The notes under the pieces were generated by a model, which was not told the DNA's origin, made no database searches, and saw only the letters and a list, made by a program, of their open reading frames with translations. Positions 8,914-20,097 of a DNA stretch of 36,835 bases are shown piece by piece (position 1 is the first letter of the stretch; each line of letters opens with the position of its first letter). Location of the stretch: positions 1 to 36,835 of the forward strand of contig JAACJG010000022.1 in the NCBI GenBank assembly GCA_009917695.1, in the 5' to 3' direction. The stretch comes from Candidatus Rifleibacterium amylolyticum (lineage in GTDB: Bacteria; Muiribacteriota; Ozemobacteria; Ozemobacterales; Ozemobacteraceae). Position numbers and translations under genes: made by a program.

Positions 8914-10752
8914 TTATCCGAGCACTTCTATGACTTTGAGAACATTTTCGACCCGGCCAAATGGCACGCTTATCTGCACTCCATCGACGATTTTTCGCAC
9001 CCGTTCAAGGGCTTCGCGTGCTATGGCGATACCTTCCTCGCGCTGAGCCTCTACGGTGTCTGCCTTGCGCATTCTTGCCAGAAGAGGCTCTGGCACCGAG
9101 GCACCCGGCACTTCGTTGTTCATGAATTCAGCGTTTTTGAGACTGGCGAGCGGCCAGATTCCAGCAAATACAGGAATTCGCACATGACTGATACGATCGA
9201 GAAAACGTTCAAGCAGTTCTATGTCGAATACCGGCTGGGTAATGGCGTACTCAGCGCCGGCATCGACTTTCCATTCAAAGCGGCTGACTTCGAGGTCGAG
9301 ATCGATTGCGCCAGGGTTGGCACCAACTCCACAGACAAAAGCTGTTGGCTTGCCGATAGCATTGTTACCTAGATCGCGGCCGTGATTAAGACGATGAATT
9401 ACGTTTACCAGACCGATCGAATCGATATCGAAAACCGCCGTTGCCTGCGGATAATTGCCAACTTTGGGCGGGTCACCGGTAATCGCGAGAATATTTCGCA
9501 GCCCAATCGCATAGGCACCCAGCAGATCGGACTGGATACCGAGAATATTGCGGTCACGACAGCAATAATGAAGAATAGTCTCGATTCCAACCTTCTGCTC
9601 GATCAGAAGGGACATGGCAAGTGGACTCAAACGCGCTGAGGCACGCGGGCCATCGGGAATATTAATAGCATCGATTCCCGCTTCTTTAAGCTGCTTCGCT
9701 CTCTGTATAACCTGTTCGGGGTCACACCCCTTGGGCGGTGTGAGTTCTGCTGTCACTACGAACTTATTTTCTGCGAGTTTTTTGCCCAGAGCCGATTTTT
9801 GTGGTAAAGCAACGACTTCGACCTGAGCCTCAACATTATCAACCTGACGAAACTGCTGTAGTATTGCGCCTTTGCCGCCTGGCGAAAGTGCTTTAGCGGA
9901 GTTGGCGACCCACTTGATATGCTCCGGCGTGGTACCGCAGCATCCGCCGACCATGCGGACGCCAAGCTGAAAGAAACGGCGGGCGTATTCGCCAAAATAT
10001 TCTGGGTTACAGAGGTAAATCATGCGGCCATCGACGACCTTCGGCAGACCGGCGTTCGGCTGTGCAATCAGATTGAGGCTGGTGAGCGAACGCATCTTTT
10101 CGATGGCATCATACATTGTTTTGGGCCCGACGGAGCAGTTCAAACCTATAAAATCAGCGCCCCAGCTTTCGAGCTTGGGTGTGAAAACATCGACTGTCGT
10201 TCCATAAAGGGCATTGCCGTCTTCGTTGATGGTCATCGATGCGATAATCGGCTTGTCGGTAAGTTTCCGCACGGCTTTGATCGCCTGATGAATTTCGTTG
10301 AGATCAAAAAAGGTCTCCAGAATAAAGAGATCGACGCCGCCCGCGAGCAAACCACGCGCCTGCTCGGTAAAAGCTTCTTCTGCCTCTTCGATTGAGGTTT
10401 TGCCCCAGGGTTCGATACGTATGCCAAGCGGACCGATCGAACCAGCGACCCAGGCATTATTACCAGCCGCTTCGCGAGCCAGCTTCGCCGCCTGAAAGTT
10501 GATGACTTCGAGCTTATCGGCAAGACCGTGTGGTTCGAGTTTGAAGCGGTTGGCGCCAAACGAGTTGGTTTCGAGCACCATCGCACCGGCAGCCAGATAT
10601 TCGCGGTGAACTTCCTGAATCAGAGCCGGTTGTGACAAATTAAGCTCGTCATAGACTCGATTGATATAGACGCCCTTTTCATACAGCCGCGTGCCCATGG
10701 CGCCATCAAAGATTACCAGATTTTTTTCAGCGAATTCACGAAAATCCTGCAA
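8914..10752 (-). CDS. Bifunctional homocysteine S-methyltransferase / 5,10-methylene-THF reductase
   Basis: The N-terminal half (1-290) is a homocysteine methyltransferase domain with DGAMGT (16-21) and zinc cysteines C206 (GLNCSVGP) and C271-C272 (GGCCGT). The C-terminal half (325-612) is a methylene-THF reductase TIM barrel, with FVVTAELTPPKG at its start and ITGDPPK near 425. This is the architecture of Bacillus subtilis YitJ, with similar length. The reductase supplies methyl-THF, which the adjacent MetH consumes. The start is placed at TTG 10752 because AGGGG lies just upstream and because an earlier TTG at 10785 falls inside the -10 box of the promoter. It is the first gene of a three-gene operon. 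Confidence 0.95.
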   Translation of the reverse strand: MQDFREFAEKNLVIFDGAMGTRLYEKGVYINRVYDELNLSQPALIQEVHREYLAAGAMVLETNSFGANRFKLEPHGLADKLEVINFQAAKLAREAAGNNAWVAGSIGPLGIRIEPWGKTSIEEAEEAFTEQARGLLAGGVDLFILETFFDLNEIHQAIKAVRKLTDKPIIASMTINEDGNALYGTTVDVFTPKLESWGADFIGLNCSVGPKTMYDAIEKMRSLTSLNLIAQPNAGLPKVVDGRMIYLCNPEYFGEYARRFFQLGVRMVGGCCGTTPEHIKWVANSAKALSPGGKGAILQQFRQVDNVEAQVEVVALPQKSALGKKLAENKFVVTAELTPPKGCDPEQVIQRAKQLKEAGIDAINIPDGPRASARLSPLAMSLLIEQKVGIETILHYCCRDRNILGIQSDLLGAYAIGLRNILAITGDPPKVGNYPQATAVFDIDSIGLVNVIHRLNHGRDLGNNAIGKPTAFVCGVGANPGAIDLDLEVSRFEWKVDAGAEYAITQPVFDIELLERFLDRISHVRIPVFAGIWPLASLKNAEFMNNEVPGASVPEPLLARMRKADTVEAQREEGIAIAREALERVRKIVDGVQISVPFGRVENVLKVIEVLG

Positions 10753-10784
10753 TTGCTTTTCCCCTGTGTTTAAATTCGGGCACA

Positions 10785-10813
10785 ATAATGAGCCTTTTGC
10801 CCCGCGCTGTCAA
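10785..10813 (-). promoter_or_regulatory. Sigma70 promoter of the methionine operon
   Basis: A perfect TTGACA (rc of 10808-10813) and CATTAT (rc of 10785-10790) are separated by 17 bases. The start site would be near 10778, leaving a leader of only about 25 nt before the TTG start at 10752. That is too short for a SAM or cobalamin riboswitch, so no such control is expected here. Confidence 0.7.
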
Positions 10814-12704: not shown

Positions 12705-14018
12705 TCAGGGAGTGACGGTGCTGGTTGCGGCAAAAATCTGCAGCATTATCAGTACCCCGAAGATTATCGACAGCAGGGTCGTTGGAATTCCAAAGCGGGC
12801 GTAACCCCAGAAGGATATGCTGCAGCGGTCTTTGGCTGATTCGGCTACGATCAGGTTGGCAACTGAACTGAACAATGTCATGTTGCCGGCAACCGTACTT
12901 ACATAAGCGAGAATACTCCAGAACAGCTCAGAATTGCCAAGCGATGGCACGCTGCTCGCTGCCAGAAGCACGTAGGGGACATTCGACAGAACGTTCGAAC
13001 CCAGCAGGGTAACGCCGGAAAAAATCCAGACCTGCGATGAAAGGCTGCCAGAAACCATCTGCAGAGGGCTTTCGGTTATTATTCTGGCCAGACCACTGGT
13101 CTGCAGACCGCCGATGACGACGAACAGAGAAGCAAAAAACAGCAGCAGGGACCACTCGACCCGGGCCAGAATGTCAGCCGGATCTCTGCGATGAAAGGTT
13201 ATGACGACGACAGCGCCGGCAAGAGCCGAAAAAGCCATTGAAAAACCTGTAGCAAAACCGAGGCACGTCAAGCCCAGACCAAACAGGCCGATGCGCAGAC
13301 GTCTGGTTTTGGCAACCTCTTCTACATCGCTGATCTCAGAATCTTCTTCTAATCCAGCGTTCACAGCTGTTTCAGGCAGCAACAACTGATTGCGGTAGTA
13401 AAGCCAGGCCAGCAGAGAGTTGAACCCCATGGCAACAAGAACCGGCAAAGACATTACAGCAATGAATCTGAGGTAGTTCATACCAGAAAGATTGCCAACG
13501 ATCATGTTCTGCGGATTGCCGGTCAGCGTCAGCGCAGAACCGATGTTGGCCGATGTTACAAGCACGATCAGATAAGGGAAAGGATTAAGGCGCTTATGGC
13601 GACAGATCGCAAGAACGAGTGGCGTCATGACCACGCAGACAGTATCGTTGACCAGAATGGCAGAAGAAAGCGCTGATATAACAGAAAGAGCCATCAACAG
13701 GCCGAATGGTGAATCGACCTGCGCAACTCCGCTGGTAAATTTTTGAAACAGGCCGGCGGCACGCAGATGTTCGGCTATTATCATCATGCCGAGCAACAGG
13801 CATATTGTGTCCCAGTTCACCAGAGTATAGGCTTCTTCCGGGCTCATGACACCGCACAGAACCATGAGTACCGCACCCAGCATCGCAGCCGATGGTCGTC
13901 CGATCGGAAGCAGCTGCATGCGCCGCACCGAAATCATGATAAAAGTAAATACAAAAATGAGTCCTGCTGACCAGGGGTGACGAAGGCCTTCGCCGGCGGC
14001 CGCTCCGATTGTTTCCAT
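12705..14018 (-). CDS. ArsB/NhaD-superfamily permease (SLC13/ion transporter type)
   Basis: A 437-residue membrane protein with about 11-12 hydrophobic segments arranged as two repeats. Each repeat holds a family motif: GSALTLTGNPQNMIVG in the first half, and SNVPYVLLA with VAGNMTLFSSVANLIVAES in the second. These match the re-entrant substrate-binding loops of the ArsB/P-protein/NhaD/CitM group (ion transporter superfamily). The substrate cannot be fixed from sequence: arsenite, Na+/H+ exchange or a di- or tricarboxylate are all possible. It is far from the arsenic island and has no ars-like neighbour, so arsenite is not favoured. AGGAG lies six bases before the ATG. It is divergently oriented from the peptidase operon. 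Confidence 0.85.
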   Translation of the reverse strand: METIGAAAGEGLRHPWSAGLIFVFTFIMISVRRMQLLPIGRPSAAMLGAVLMVLCGVMSPEEAYTLVNWDTICLLLGMMIIAEHLRAAGLFQKFTSGVAQVDSPFGLLMALSVISALSSAILVNDTVCVVMTPLVLAICRHKRLNPFPYLIVLVTSANIGSALTLTGNPQNMIVGNLSGMNYLRFIAVMSLPVLVAMGFNSLLAWLYYRNQLLLPETAVNAGLEEDSEISDVEEVAKTRRLRIGLFGLGLTCLGFATGFSMAFSALAGAVVVITFHRRDPADILARVEWSLLLFFASLFVVIGGLQTSGLARIITESPLQMVSGSLSSQVWIFSGVTLLGSNVLSNVPYVLLAASSVPSLGNSELFWSILAYVSTVAGNMTLFSSVANLIVAESAKDRCSISFWGYARFGIPTTLLSIIFGVLIMLQIFAATSTVTP

Positions 14019-14128: not shown

Positions 14129-14158
14129 TTGACCAGACACCCGCCTGCGTGCTATAAA
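14129..14158 (+). promoter_or_regulatory. Sigma70 promoter of the peptidase-phosphatase-kinase operon
   Basis: TTGACC (14129-14134) and TATAAA (14153-14158) are separated by 18 bases; each matches five of six consensus positions. The start site near 14165 supports translation from the ATG at 14189 and rules out the long upstream in-frame extension. Confidence 0.65.
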
Positions 14159-14188: not shown

Positions 14189-15994
14189 ATGAGTAAAGGT
14201 GTCGTCTGGGATCTTACCAGCTATTTTGCTTCGTTCAACAGCCCTGAAATGCAGCAGTTCAAAAAAGAAATGAATGCCATGATCGACAAAATGCGAACCG
14301 AGAGTAGCACATTGGGAGCTCTCAACAAAAGCAACCTTGAGCAATGGGAAAAACTTGTGCTCGACTTTGAGCAGCTGACCCGCCGCCTTTCACACTATGG
14401 CTCTTACGTTGGATGTCTGCATTCCGCCGATGCCAACAACGAAGAATACGGCAAAGAATCAGCCGAAACCGACACTATCGGCGCTGAATTCAGCAAAATT
14501 GTGATCAACCTCAAAATGGGCCTTAAAAACGCTGAGGATGCAGACTTTAAAGCCTTCTGCCAGCGCGAGAAACTTGCTGACATCAGCTTTCACCTTAGCG
14601 AGCTGCGCGAAGAAGCTCAGAAAACCATGAGCAGCGAGCTTGAAACTCTGGCCGCCGATCTCAGCGTCGATGGTTTCAGTTCCTGGGATCGACTATACAA
14701 CGTGCTTGCCGGCAAGCTCTGTTTCGACATGCACTGGCCCGATGGCCGGGTTGAAAAGACGCCAATGGCACAATGCCGTTCACTGATGCAGGACTCAGAC
14801 CGCAAGGTGCGTCAGGCGGCATTCGAACACGGCAACAAGGCGTGGGAACAGGTCGAAGACGTCTGCGCCGCCTCGCTCAACGCTATTTCCGGCACCAGGC
14901 TCCTTCTTAACCGACGCCGCGGCTTCGAGCATTTTCTCGACGTATCGCTGCTGCAGTCGCGCATTTCGCGCAAGACCCTCGACGCCATGTTCCAAGCTAT
15001 CGCCGAATGCCGACCCTTCATTCAGAAGCTCGGCAAGGCCAAGGCCAAGGCCCTCGGCCAGGAAAAACTTGCCTGGTATGACTGCGAAGCGCCGCTGGCG
15101 ATTCCTTCGCTCAACCGCTACAGCTGGGATGAATGTGTAAACATGGTCGAAAAAGCATTCGCGCGGGCATATCCCGAGCTGTGCAACTTCTTCAAAGATG
15201 CGCTGGCAAAGAAATGGGTAGAATCAGAGCCTCGCCAGGGCAAGCGCCCGGGCGCCTTCTGCACCGGCTCTCTGCTGACCGAAGAATCGCGCGTCTTCAT
15301 GAGCTATGCCGGCAGTCTCAATGACATATCGACGCTTGCCCACGAAATCGGCCATGCCTTTCACAGTGCACAACTCAACGGACTGCGCCCGCTGTGCCAG
15401 GAGTACCCGATGACCCTGGCTGAATCAGCTTCGACCTTTGCCGAAATTCTGCTGGCCGAAGGCATCATGACCGACCCGGACAGCACCGACGCCCAGAAAC
15501 TCAGCGTGCTGACCTCTACGGTCAACCACGGCATAGCTTTTCTTATCGACATACCGATCCGATTCAACTTTGAAAAAGCCTTTCACGAAGAACGAATGCG
15601 CGGCGAAGTCAGCGTTTCGCGCTTCAAGTCTCTGATGACTGAGGCGATGCAGAGCCAGTTCGGCGATCTGCTCGAAGAAAATGGCGCCAACCCGTTCTTC
15701 TGGGCTTCCAAGATGCATTTTTACCTGACCGGTGTCAGCTTCTATAATTATCCGTATACCTTCGGCTACCTGCTCAGCCGCGGGCTGTTCGAAATGTTCA
15801 AACGAGAGGGCAAAGCTTTTCTGCCGAAATACCAGGAGTTTTTGCGATACTCAGGCAGCGATATGGCGCAGACCGTCGCTCAGAACACTCTGGGAGTCGA
15901 CCTCGAAACTACCGACTTCTGGAAGCGTGCGATAATGAGCCACGAACCAGAACTTGCCGAATTCGAAACTCTCGTCAAAAAGGTGCTTGGCTGA
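14189..15994 (+). CDS. M3 family oligoendopeptidase (PepF-like)
   Basis: A zinc metallopeptidase of 601 residues, the usual length for M3B oligoendopeptidases. The catalytic HEIGH motif is at 385-389 (ligands H385 and H389, general base E386), and Glu412 in MTLAESASTFAE is the likely third ligand. There is no signal peptide, so it acts in the cytosol on short peptides, probably in peptide recycling. The ATG at 14189 is chosen because AAGGAA lies eight bases upstream and the promoter maps just before it. It is the first gene of a tight three-gene operon, with three bases separating its stop from the next start. Confidence 0.94.
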   Translation: MSKGVVWDLTSYFASFNSPEMQQFKKEMNAMIDKMRTESSTLGALNKSNLEQWEKLVLDFEQLTRRLSHYGSYVGCLHSADANNEEYGKESAETDTIGAEFSKIVINLKMGLKNAEDADFKAFCQREKLADISFHLSELREEAQKTMSSELETLAADLSVDGFSSWDRLYNVLAGKLCFDMHWPDGRVEKTPMAQCRSLMQDSDRKVRQAAFEHGNKAWEQVEDVCAASLNAISGTRLLLNRRRGFEHFLDVSLLQSRISRKTLDAMFQAIAECRPFIQKLGKAKAKALGQEKLAWYDCEAPLAIPSLNRYSWDECVNMVEKAFARAYPELCNFFKDALAKKWVESEPRQGKRPGAFCTGSLLTEESRVFMSYAGSLNDISTLAHEIGHAFHSAQLNGLRPLCQEYPMTLAESASTFAEILLAEGIMTDPDSTDAQKLSVLTSTVNHGIAFLIDIPIRFNFEKAFHEERMRGEVSVSRFKSLMTEAMQSQFGDLLEENGANPFFWASKMHFYLTGVSFYNYPYTFGYLLSRGLFEMFKREGKAFLPKYQEFLRYSGSDMAQTVAQNTLGVDLETTDFWKRAIMSHEPELAEFETLVKKVLG

Positions 15995-15997
15995 TCG

Positions 15998-16612
15998 ATG
16001 CTGCCACAGAAACGCAGAGAGCTGGTTTTGCCGGCCAAATGCAGCGAAAAAAAGTTGTGCGTGGCCTTTTTCGATGCCGACAACACTCTGCGCGAAACTC
16101 ACAGCAAAAAGCAGTCGCCGCATGGCCGCCACGACGTAATGATTTTCCGGCATGCGGCCGACAAGCTCAAAGCGCTGACCGAAGCCGGCTGGCTGCTGGC
16201 GATTGTATCCAACCAGGCGGGCATAAGCCTCGGATATATCTCGAAAAACGAGGTTGAAGAAGCCATGCAGGAGACAATTCGCCAGTTCGCCGAACTTGGC
16301 GCGGTTTTCAACTATTACGATTACGCCGAGAAATACGATGAGAATCGTAAACCTGACTGCGAAATGGCCTGGCGGCTCGAGCGCAAGCTGCACCAGCACA
16401 AACGCCGCATCGACTGGCAACAGAGCTTCATGGTCGGCGATGCTGCCTGGAAAAAGGCCAGGGATCTTCAACCAGACGGCTCACCCGGCGAAGATCATTC
16501 AGCCGCCGACCGGATGTTCGCCGAAAACATTGCATTGAAGCACCCGGGCTTCGGGTTCTTCCATCCCCGTGATTTTTTTGGTAAGCTGCACGGCGAATTC
16601 AACGCAAGGTAA
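15998..16612 (+). CDS. HAD-IIIA phosphatase, PNKP 3'-phosphatase-like
   Basis: HAD motifs are complete: FFDADNTLR (24-32; nucleophile D26, acid/base D28), IVSNQAG (69-75; S71), NRKP (116-119; K118), and the acidic pair near VGDAAW (146-151) and DHSAADRMFAEN (166-177). The C-terminal pattern S-x2-DR-x-FAEN...FFHPRDFF resembles polynucleotide kinase 3'-phosphatases (FS..DR.FA.N...TPEEFF). It is also close to histidinol-phosphatase and heptose-bisphosphatase relatives, so the substrate, a DNA or RNA 3'-phosphate or a small molecule, is open. No kinase domain is attached. It is sandwiched between peptidase and protein kinase with gaps of 3 and 6 bases. Confidence 0.8.
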   Translation: MLPQKRRELVLPAKCSEKKLCVAFFDADNTLRETHSKKQSPHGRHDVMIFRHAADKLKALTEAGWLLAIVSNQAGISLGYISKNEVEEAMQETIRQFAELGAVFNYYDYAEKYDENRKPDCEMAWRLERKLHQHKRRIDWQQSFMVGDAAWKKARDLQPDGSPGEDHSAADRMFAENIALKHPGFGFFHPRDFFGKLHGEFNAR

Positions 16613-16618
16613 AAAGAC

Positions 16619-19237
16619 ATGAGCAGCCAGAATCCAACTATCGGCCAGGCACCGGCTCCCGGCACGATAATCAACGGCTGCCGGATCATCGCTGAAATTG
16701 GCGCCGGCGGCATGGGCACGGTTTACAAGGCTGTCGATGAAAGTCTCAACCGCCATGTCGCCATCAAAATCATGCATCAGGCGACCGACAACCGCATCGG
16801 CCGCACCCGCTTTCTGCGTGAGGCCTCGGCGATCGCCCGCCTCGACCACCCTGGTATCGTAAAAATCTACAGTTACGGCGAGTACAACGAGCAGCCATTT
16901 TTTATCATGGAACTGGTAGAAGGCTGGTCGATACGCGACTTTATCACGCGCTGTCGCTACATTCACAATGCAGAGCACTCGATCAGCGACCTGCGAATGT
17001 CGGGCTACATACGCGAGGCCGCGCCGGGCACCCCTTATTTTCTGCAGGATCACCTGACCAACCCGGTTAACGACCCGAATTACCCGGCCCGCGTACGCAA
17101 ACTGATGGCGTCGGCGGCATCGGCGCTGGCAGCAGCTCACCGTCTGCAGGTCATTCACCGCGACATCAAAGCCTCGAACCTGCTGATAAACAATGACACA
17201 ATGCTAAAGCTGATCGACTTCGGACTGGTTAAAAAGAGCGGCGACAGCGAACTGACGCGGCCGGACCAGTTTATGGGCACTCTCTCTTACGCAGCTCCCG
17301 AGCAGCTGATGGGTAACCGCGCGCAAATAACCACACTCACCGACATCTACAGCCTGGGTGTCGTCATGTATGAACTCGCCTGCCTGCGCCACCCGATAAC
17401 GGCCGAAGACCCGGCAGCAATAGTTTCGGCGATCAGCCGCGGCGATATTGCGCCGCCGAAAGCTCTCAACACACATATTTCGGAAGAATTTTCAGCATTG
17501 ATCATGAAATGTCTCAAAACTGAGCCGGCACAGCGTTTTGCCAATGCCGACGAACTGGCAGAAGCCCTGCAGGAGCACTATTCTGCGCCCACCTGGTTTT
17601 CCGGTTTCAAAGAAATACTAAAAGGCTGGTTTTTCAGGGAAACACCCGGCGAAGTCGCCAGCCCGCAACCCACCCAGACAGTGGCGCCAGCTGTTTCCCC
17701 CTCTGAAAGCGAATCGCCAAAATCGGTCGCACTCAGGTTTCTCGACAGTGCCCGCAAAAAATTCTTCGTGAGTTTTGCCGTGATCGAGGCGATTGAAGAC
17801 CTCAGACAGGCTTTTGAACTCGACCCAGGCAATGCCGACACACTTTTTCTGATCTGCTTTGCGCTCAACACGATCGGGGAGCGAGCCGAGATCAAAACCT
17901 TGATCGATGCCTCGGCCGAGCTGATAAGTCGCAGCGACGAAAAAGCCTCGGGAAAATTTATACTGACCCGCTCTATCTTTCTGTTGCGCGATTACGAAGA
18001 AGGTCGCAAACAGTCGATTCGCCTGCGCCAGATATACAGCGACGATCAGGACTTTCACTTCGCGCTGTTCTTCTGCCTCGAAACGCTTGGGAACTACAAC
18101 GAGGCCATTGAAGTCGGCAACGAACTCGCCCGCTTTTCGCGCAAGAACAACATTGTCGCGGTTGCCCAGAGTGAATGTTACTTTTCGGTCATGGATTTCG
18201 ACAGTGCGATCGAGGTGCTGCGCGAGCGCATCGAGAAATACCCGGATTACCACAATCTGCGTCTCAAGGTTATTCAGGCGCAACTCTTGAGCGGCCGCTT
18301 CGAGGAAGCTGCCGATGAGACCCGGCAATCGCTCGACAAAGACCCGAACAACATGCTTTTGCAGTTCTATTACAGCCGCATTCTCTCGCTGATGGAAAAA
18401 TACCAGCAGTCTTTTGATACCATGCGCCGCGCAGTTGGCACGCCCGGAGACGAAGGTCTACGCGCCATGGGCTACTACTCGCTCTATCGGCTCGCAGAGG
18501 TCCTTGAAAAGCCGGAATCGGCCGAACGCTTCATCGCCCAGGCGAGAAAGCTCAAGCCTGAGATCGCGTTCATGACCAATCGAGAGCTGGCTGAACATGT
18601 TGCAAAAGACACTCTGCCAGGCATCGCCGAAGAACTCGGCAATCTGGAATGGTTCGCAACTGCCCGAAAATACGCGCAAAAAATCTGCATCGACACGCTC
18701 GACGTGCGGGCTTACACAATAGGCAACTATGGCTGTACATCAGTTCTGGTCGTGCAGAAAGACGGAACTATCAAACATCAGGCAATCTTCAGCAATTTCA
18801 ATCTGCATGAAGGCGAAGAGCTCTACACCCAGCTCTGGTTGCCGGAAACGCCAGAATCACCCTTTATCGACCAGAATGGCAACATTCTGACATCGGCATT
18901 CTACCCGACACAGGGCAAAATCAGCGGCGGCATTGTCTCGCTTACCTTCGCCGAACCCTGGAACACCGGACAAAGCAGCTACATCTGCTGCCGTCTTTCT
19001 GACACCAGGGTTATCGAGACAAAGAACAGTCAGAAATTCGTGCTGCCACATCTGCCGCAGCCGGCATGCAGACGCCAGGCCTTTCTCATTGTGCTGCCCA
19101 TCAGCGCCAGCCCGACAGCTTTTTCTCAACAGCCCGATGAAATAGTAGAATACAAGCGCTCAAAGGTCCTGTGCTACCTGCCATATCTGACCGCAGGCGC
19201 CGCCTTCAAGCTCGAATTCAACCTGACAGGCCGGTAA
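16619..19237 (+). CDS. Serine/threonine protein kinase with TPR region and orphan C-terminal domain
   Basis: An 872-residue soluble protein. The Hanks-type kinase domain (about 21-315) is complete: GAGGMG loop (28-33), K50, E68, HRDIKASN (180-187), DFG (200-202) and APE (226-228). About 50 extra residues (111-160) sit between the hinge and the helix before HRD. A proline-rich linker (about 340-370) leads to TPR-like helical repeats (about 375-650), a likely partner-binding surface. The last 200 residues are a beta-rich domain I do not recognise. No transmembrane segment or PASTA domain is seen, which sets it apart from PknB-type receptors. It ends the operon and converges on the next gene with an 11-base gap. 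Targets are unknown. Confidence 0.92.
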   Translation: MSSQNPTIGQAPAPGTIINGCRIIAEIGAGGMGTVYKAVDESLNRHVAIKIMHQATDNRIGRTRFLREASAIARLDHPGIVKIYSYGEYNEQPFFIMELVEGWSIRDFITRCRYIHNAEHSISDLRMSGYIREAAPGTPYFLQDHLTNPVNDPNYPARVRKLMASAASALAAAHRLQVIHRDIKASNLLINNDTMLKLIDFGLVKKSGDSELTRPDQFMGTLSYAAPEQLMGNRAQITTLTDIYSLGVVMYELACLRHPITAEDPAAIVSAISRGDIAPPKALNTHISEEFSALIMKCLKTEPAQRFANADELAEALQEHYSAPTWFSGFKEILKGWFFRETPGEVASPQPTQTVAPAVSPSESESPKSVALRFLDSARKKFFVSFAVIEAIEDLRQAFELDPGNADTLFLICFALNTIGERAEIKTLIDASAELISRSDEKASGKFILTRSIFLLRDYEEGRKQSIRLRQIYSDDQDFHFALFFCLETLGNYNEAIEVGNELARFSRKNNIVAVAQSECYFSVMDFDSAIEVLRERIEKYPDYHNLRLKVIQAQLLSGRFEEAADETRQSLDKDPNNMLLQFYYSRILSLMEKYQQSFDTMRRAVGTPGDEGLRAMGYYSLYRLAEVLEKPESAERFIAQARKLKPEIAFMTNRELAEHVAKDTLPGIAEELGNLEWFATARKYAQKICIDTLDVRAYTIGNYGCTSVLVVQKDGTIKHQAIFSNFNLHEGEELYTQLWLPETPESPFIDQNGNILTSAFYPTQGKISGGIVSLTFAEPWNTGQSSYICCRLSDTRVIETKNSQKFVLPHLPQPACRRQAFLIVLPISASPTAFSQQPDEIVEYKRSKVLCYLPYLTAGAAFKLEFNLTGR

Positions 19238-19248
19238 GCAGAAACAGG

Positions 19249-20097
19249 TCAGTGAAAGAGTTTTATTTTAACCCGCTTCAGCCCTTTGCCAACGCGACCG
19301 CCCGACACGACGCGATTCAGACCGACATAAATATCGTAATTTGGCTGACCTTCAGCGTCTCCCTGCCCGGCAAGGCTGAAAACATACTCAGACTTTACCG
19401 CTCCATCGACGCCCTTGTCGTTATGCCATGAAACCTGATTATTGCTGATTTCAAGCACAACCACTGCACCAGGCACTGCAACCCCTGCTGAGCGGGCAAG
19501 AATTTTGGCTTCGCCGGTCGGTGCTGTGTCATCGCCAAAGATCGTCAGATCCGGCCCCAGAATCTGCACTTCGCTGTCACGGGTCTGATCTGCGCCATCT
19601 CCGCCATGGCCATTATTCGAGACGGAATCTCCGATATTGAGAGTCCATCCGTCGATTTCATCGCCATAATGCAGTTCAAAGCGAGCTTTGGTAAATTCAG
19701 TCTTTGCCGGGTCAAGAACTACTTTGACAACAGCCTGGCAGGATGAATCAGAGGCAAACAGTTGAACGGCCTCCGGCTTTCTGCTGCCAAAACGCCGGTC
19801 AATCAGATCAATTTCACAATCAGCATCAGCCGCCAGTTCCTCTACCGGAATATTAGAGAAGTTTTCTTCAGTTACGCCTCCAGAGTCTTTTCCATAGGTA
19901 TAACAGTTGTAACCGGCCGGCTTGCCATTGCCCACGCCGTATGGAAAGTCACAGTTCCTGACAGGCATTTCATCCGAGCGTTTCTCGATTGCCGGCTGCG
20001 CTGCTTCAACCGTAGCCTCAGACTCAGCCCAGAGAACCGTATTCATGCCCGCAAAGACGACCGGAAGACAACAGACCAGCAAAAACAATCTTTTCAT
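19249..20097 (-). CDS. Exported protein of unknown function, four cysteines
   Basis: I do not recognise this 282-residue protein. A signal peptide (1-24, ending VLWA-ES) precedes an acidic linker. The mature part has exactly four cysteines (C49, C65, C94, C120), suggesting two disulfides. The second half is beta-rich, with a Gly/Asp/Asn-dense loop (GDSVSNNGHGGDGADQT, 156-172) that could bind calcium. This looks like a beta-sandwich extracellular domain, but no family is claimed. AGGGAG precedes the ATG. An extended -10 promoter lies about 35 bases upstream. Confidence 0.8.
   Translation of the reverse strand: MKRLFLLVCCLPVVFAGMNTVLWAESEATVEAAQPAIEKRSDEMPVRNCDFPYGVGNGKPAGYNCYTYGKDSGGVTEENFSNIPVEELAADADCEIDLIDRRFGSRKPEAVQLFASDSSCQAVVKVVLDPAKTEFTKARFELHYGDEIDGWTLNIGDSVSNNGHGGDGADQTRDSEVQILGPDLTIFGDDTAPTGEAKILARSAGVAVPGAVVVLEISNNQVSWHNDKGVDGAVKSEYVFSLAGQGDAEGQPNYDIYVGLNRVVSGGRVGKGLKRVKIKLFH

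Follow-up and report, generated by a model that had tools for sequence, protein, structure and literature searches.

A co-oriented M3 peptidase, PNKP-type phosphatase and Ser/Thr kinase gene triple in Candidatus Rifleibacterium amylolyticum and its relatives

The locus and its promoter

The window analysed here, 36,835 bases long, is one whole contig of the 5.39-Mb genome of Candidatus Rifleibacterium amylolyticum. Three open reading frames follow one another on its + strand behind a promoter-like element:

14129..14158, + strand: promoter TTGACC-18-TATAAA, with TG one base before the second hexamer (sequence, looser script scan)
14189..15994, + strand: M3B oligoendopeptidase, 601 aa (TIGR02290, PF01432; HEIGH zinc motif)
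15998..16612, + strand: PNKP-type HAD phosphatase, cytosolic form, 204 aa (PF08645 over profile positions 2–161 of 161)
16619..19237, + strand: soluble Ser/Thr kinase with TPR repeats, 872 aa (PF00069 and TPR families)

The gap between peptidase and HAD genes is 3 bases and that between HAD and kinase genes 6 bases, all three frames being open; on re-inspection the first-pass annotation was correct in its three tight ORFs, their order and both gaps. It had also posited one clear promoter. The sequence TTGACC-18-TGCTATAAA at 14129–14158 matches the consensus at 10 of 12 positions and carries the TG extension. A stricter scan listed no + strand site above 9/12 before the peptidase, and it misses this element because it requires the second hexamer to end in T. 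Four of five same-genus genomes (the window's, G023, G024 and G026) have a TTGACC-18-TGnTATAA element 59–62 bases upstream of the start codon, and the single-promoter claim is therefore supported within the genus. The fifth, G025, retains the second hexamer with its TG but not the first hexamer, and the element is absent from the other genera tested (G006, G007, G019–G022).

Other features of the window adjoin the triple or lie further upstream. A divergent gene for a citrate/arsenite-type transporter (12705–14018) has a strong promoter-like element on the − strand (14073–14045, TTGCCA-17-TATAAT, 11/12). Past the kinase stop, a convergent 282-aa ORF begins after 11 bases (19249–20097, − strand), with no family match and no relative among the fetched stretches. 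At 8914–10785 (− strand), homocysteine S-methyltransferase and methylenetetrahydrofolate reductase domains are fused in one gene.

Three enzymes of known families

The peptidase scores 585.1 bits against TIGR02290, above the cut-off of 561.7, and also matches PF01432; its translation carries HEIGHAFHS, an HExxH zinc site. It is thus alike to the PepF-like M3 family in score and motif and differs in its operon partners. Its close orthologues in G021 and G022 fall just below the TIGR02290 cut-off (532.6 and 542.5 vs 561.7). No signal or membrane segment was found in it, its top 19-residue hydropathy being 1.23 vs 2.26 and 2.32 in two controls from the window.

The HAD protein matches PF08645 (PNK3P) at 86.6 bits (cut-off 22) over positions 2–161 of 161. 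It falls below the cut-offs of the DNA 3'-phosphatase equivalog TIGR01664 (77 bits vs 107.65) and of bifunctional PNKP, TIGR01663 (59.9 vs 502.8). The families named in the first-pass annotation (M3 peptidase, PNKP-like HAD, kinase-TPR) were thus right, with the reservation that the HAD protein lies under the DNA 3'-phosphatase cut-off. No C-terminal polynucleotide 5'-kinase domain is present; the 204-aa protein stops after the phosphatase domain, and the window form has no export signal. Its sequence matches in the PDB are mouse PNKP (1yj5/3zvl, E about 1e-10), and the top Foldseek match of its low-confidence AlphaFold model (mean pLDDT 56.4) is 3u7f, mouse PNKP with ssDNA (E 1.6e-5). This model, like that of the kinase C-terminus, is poor because no alignment was supplied. 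The nearest named relatives of the HAD are from Candidatus Riflebacteria.

The HAD retains the active-site residues of PNKP. In PMC7746193, the phosphatase and DNA-site residues of PNKP are given as D171, D173, T217, N218, Q219, R259, K260 and D289, as in-silico predictions described as agreeing with experiments. Pairing residue numbers from the motifs in an alignment to mouse PNKP, we found that D26, D28, S71, N72, Q73, R117, K118 and D148 of the HAD align with these positions, while F306 of the same list falls on H167. Among 14 HADs, D26, D28, N72, Q73, K118 and D148 are invariant and S71 and R117 nearly so; D171 and R172 of the HAD are also invariant in the 14 rows, and the C-terminal DxSxxDRxFAxN motif is present. 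The PNKP-like identity proposed at first reading therefore holds at the level of active-site residues. The HAD resembles mammalian PNKP (1yj5, 3zvl, 3u7f) across the whole phosphatase domain, in its catalytic residues and in the C-terminal D-x-S-x-x-D-R-x-F-A motif, but it is bacterial, only 204 aa long, below the TIGR01664 cut-off, and has neither a kinase nor an FHA domain.

The kinase matches PF00069 at 170.6 bits (cut-off 31.7) and comprises a kinase domain (about 20–320) with an insert (about 112–157), TPR repeats (about 380–650) and a beta-rich C-terminal region. Residues H180 R181 D182, K184, N187 and D200 F201 G202 are invariant in 10 rows. Like the Hanks-type kinases PknB and StkP, its best solved matches, it has a core with HRDIKxxN, DFG and APE-region motifs; unlike them, it has no PASTA domain, no membrane segment, a roughly 45-residue insert in the catalytic domain, and TPR repeats plus a C-terminal domain outside known families. 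Against NF033483 (PASTA kinase PknB/Stk1) it reaches 244.2 bits, below the cut-off of 450. PDB kinases match it in two stretches that flank the insert (window 16950–17090), which carries a conserved GYI/L-K/R-E ... PYFL ... DP.Y pattern in 10 homologues. The kinase has no membrane segment (top 19-residue hydropathy 1.16), and we rejected a membrane or exported location for kinase or peptidase, as neither has a hydrophobic segment. The C-terminal 283 residues of the kinase have no Pfam match even at E 10, and their low-confidence model (mean pLDDT 56.4) matched no fold at E 0.001. The same region turned up in 16 of 381 genomes, none from outside this phylum; conserved family-wide, it is a candidate sensor.

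Gene order and family history in the phylum

All three proteins were used as queries against 39 genomes of the phylum; 36 stretches were retrieved, and the ORFs on them were grouped into clusters. With the HAD family proper defined by 40% identity or more, 16 members were found in 15 of the 39 genomes. Nine genomes (genera g1, g3 and g9) have the cytosolic form, with no leader, and in all nine the peptidase gene immediately precedes it. The kinase comes next in seven of these (the window's genome, G023–G026, G014 and G015), with −20 to +11 bases between neighbouring genes and HAD and kinase genes overlapping by 1–20 bases in six of the seven triples. Thirteen genomes contain a kinase that is at least 45% identical across most of its assembled length. 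Several cases stand outside or adjust these counts: the G009 kinase, undecidable since it begins 93 bases from a contig end; G027, of the window's genus, where kinase (likewise undecidable) and peptidase are both cut off by contig ends and the searches gave no operon-type HAD; and two peptidase-kinase pieces of G020 (94% and 97% identical fragments), counted once. A 1141-aa relative of the kinase in G017 lies apart from both peptidase and HAD.

The M3-HAD-kinase order recurs in a second genus (G014 and G015 of g9), with HADs 56% and kinases 51–52% identical. None of the window's other genes occurs there in the 15 kb examined, a view restricted to the downstream flank, since the contigs break off within the peptidase gene. 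Flanking genes are partly conserved too within the window's own genus, so the same-genus triples weigh less and the g9 pair weighs most. The first-pass annotation had named neighbourhood conservation in relatives as the test of its own grouping; that test was run here, and the grouping survives as not incidental. Incidental neighbours are thus rejected as to order, which recurs in a second genus, although a joint task is not thereby proved.

The triple is also taken apart in some lineages. G006 and G007 have peptidase-HAD gaps of 155 and 121 bases, and genome searches found no kinase orthologue in either. G019–G022 yielded no HAD; in G020 and G022 the kinase directly follows the peptidase (gaps of 10 and 12 bases), in G019 it lies 2,436 bases away, and in G021 it is on another contig. 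Such partial operons and separations argue against an obligate three-part machine, a model we rejected because sister genera can lack either the HAD or the kinase.

The operon-type HADs form one clade (support 100/100; nine of 16 tree rows) on a long stem of 1.1 changes per column. The kinase tree, drawn without the 1141-aa relative of G017, joins g9 and g11 (100/99) with g1 outside, whereas the peptidase tree leaves g9 unplaced relative to g1/g3 and g11; the peptidase and kinase trees were made without the G016 peptidase, the broken G023 peptidase and the G023 kinase fragment. Since the peptidase tree does not place g9, any order of gains and losses rests on the kinase tree, from which the simplest story would be a triple in the common ancestor, with g11 later losing the HAD and g3 the kinase.

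Seven other HADs come from six genomes (G011, G012 with two, G013, G016, G017 and G031) and show, by eye, hydrophobic leaders at their starts. The leader is clear by hydropathy in six of the seven (1.72–2.13, either N-terminal or immediately after an internal start codon); the G016 HAD has a W-rich leader that is not its hydropathy maximum (1.42, elsewhere), and the operon-type HAD of G007 reaches 1.57, so the measure overlaps between the two forms. From their leaders, the non-operon HADs appear to be exported. In G013 an exported-type HAD lies near the peptidase on the same strand with one DUF2339 gene between them, and export and operon are therefore not perfectly exclusive. Scanned neighbours of the other exported HADs show no common function.

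One G012 gene (L115, 9659–11440) joins an exported PNK3P-type HAD to a ComEC/Rec2-like metallo-beta-lactamase domain with HPHRDH. This domain matches PF00753 at 70.5 bits and TIGR00361 at 137.5 bits, under the equivalog cut-off of 190.05, at positions 436–662. It resembles ComEC/Rec2 in matching the C-terminal part, but differs in being soluble, fused to an exported HAD and present in G012 only. The fusion favours a nucleic-acid substrate. The cytosolic HAD probably derives from an exported member of its family that, in sister genera, would deal with extracytoplasmic nucleic acids.

The PF08645 cut-off was exceeded in 129 of 286 genomes, with matches in two of 14 control genomes (E. coli and Deinobacterium chartae). 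Three of four outside loci inspected resemble GmhB/HisB types. The cut-off is loose and admits GmhB/HisB-like proteins, so PF08645 alone cannot show that the HAD is rare. A profile built from 14 HADs matched in 15 of 381 genomes, every one of this phylum, at 324–354 bits; the best score beyond these was 57 bits. With the HAD as query, phages yielded a single weak crAssphage-like match and plasmids none. The fourth outside locus (L149, 988–1959, in G093) encodes a PNKP-type phosphatase-kinase fusion from another bacterial lineage in which, read by eye, N replaces the first catalytic D, the nucleophile.

A putative turnover cassette and competing readings

The long evolutionary persistence of this adjacency suggests a shared function of the three genes. 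Gene order, tight spacing, the conserved promoter, intact catalytic motifs in all three proteins and the lack of an export signal are read from the sequence itself; the substrates, co-transcription, the regulation and targets of the kinase, a role in stress (the first-pass annotation had suggested a stress-response module whose kinase could control peptide turnover or end repair) and salvage rather than repair are what we infer. Our leading interpretation, offered tentatively and with somewhat less than even confidence, is a clade-specific cytosolic turnover cassette in which the kinase would share its expression with a peptidase and a phosphatase acting on nucleic-acid 3' ends. The genes would form one predicted transcription unit, ancestral to a family sub-clade (g1, g3, g9 and g11), with members lost in some lineages. 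The peptidase would cut short peptides in the cytoplasm, and the Mg-dependent HAD, with Asp26 as putative nucleophile together with Asp28, would strip 3'-phosphates from DNA or RNA fragments, which could then be degraded further or re-used. The kinase may sense or dock something through its TPR and C-terminal domains and phosphorylate target proteins, so that the turnover of peptides and of nucleic-acid fragments would be adjusted together.

A more specific version, which we consider unlikely, is a kinase-governed cytosolic salvage cassette that would tune peptide cleavage and the cleaning of nucleic-acid 3' ends jointly, its phosphatase having been recruited from the exported PNKP-like family, partly fused to a ComEC-like nuclease-fold domain, that would process extracytoplasmic nucleic acid. 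If true, it would constitute a bacterial branch of PNKP phosphatases serving nutrient or DNA uptake and not repair. The family of each enzyme is known, and the three-gene combination appears new to the literature searches made, which at title level gave no description of a peptidase, a PNKP-type HAD and a kinase together. The papers found on the phylum are, by their titles, metagenome papers only, and we know of no model organism in it. A stand-alone bacterial PNKP-type phosphatase with cytosolic operon-bound and apparently exported forms has a substrate that is testable in vitro, and the reason for its pairing with a protein kinase and a peptidase is likewise open to direct in vitro test.

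The three genes might instead be co-transcribed with no joint task, as cytosolic housekeeping or accessory genes that share a convenient promoter and keep their order by inertia. The existence of partial operons and separations speaks for this, as do the different peptidase neighbours elsewhere (an RNB set in G005, G016 and G017; other gene sets in G008 and G012). We nevertheless find it doubtful, if a real contender, since the order persists at about 50–56% HAD and kinase identity in g9, where the visible flank is wholly replaced, and the spacing stays within −20 to +11 bases across the seven triples.

Two further readings assign the HAD a different substrate or setting. As half of a writer-eraser pair, it would remove protein phosphates placed by the kinase, with the peptidase perhaps among the targets; the adjoining kinase and phosphatase genes, overlapping in six of seven triples, fit this, but G006 and G007 have the HAD and lack the kinase, G019–G022 have the kinase and lack the HAD, and the nearest solved HAD relatives are PNKP, a DNA-end enzyme whose DNA-contact residues the HAD keeps, all of which makes the pairing improbable. 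In animals, PNKP cleans 3'-phosphate DNA ends. That task and the conserved PNKP-site residues would suit single-strand-break repair, with the HAD cleaning ends for polymerase and ligase and the kinase as a damage-responsive regulator. We hold this to be improbable too: the genes scanned around the window operon include no repair gene, the HAD protein has no 5'-kinase domain, apparently exported relatives cannot act on the chromosome, and the peptidase is left without a place.

As regards the turnover cassette, the peptidase genes of genera g2 and g10 give a weak hint. There the next gene has no named family and is followed by an RNB exoribonuclease-type gene (G005, G016 and G017; scanned by profile in one of the three), and the G018 contig ends after the familyless gene. 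This peptidase may repeatedly accompany nucleic-acid 3'-end enzymes, although the recurrence could be coincidence. The middle gene encodes a protein of 374–483 aa with no family, and the peptidase-to-RNB stretches span L121 4786–10094, L123 4772–10039 and L120 8903–14290.
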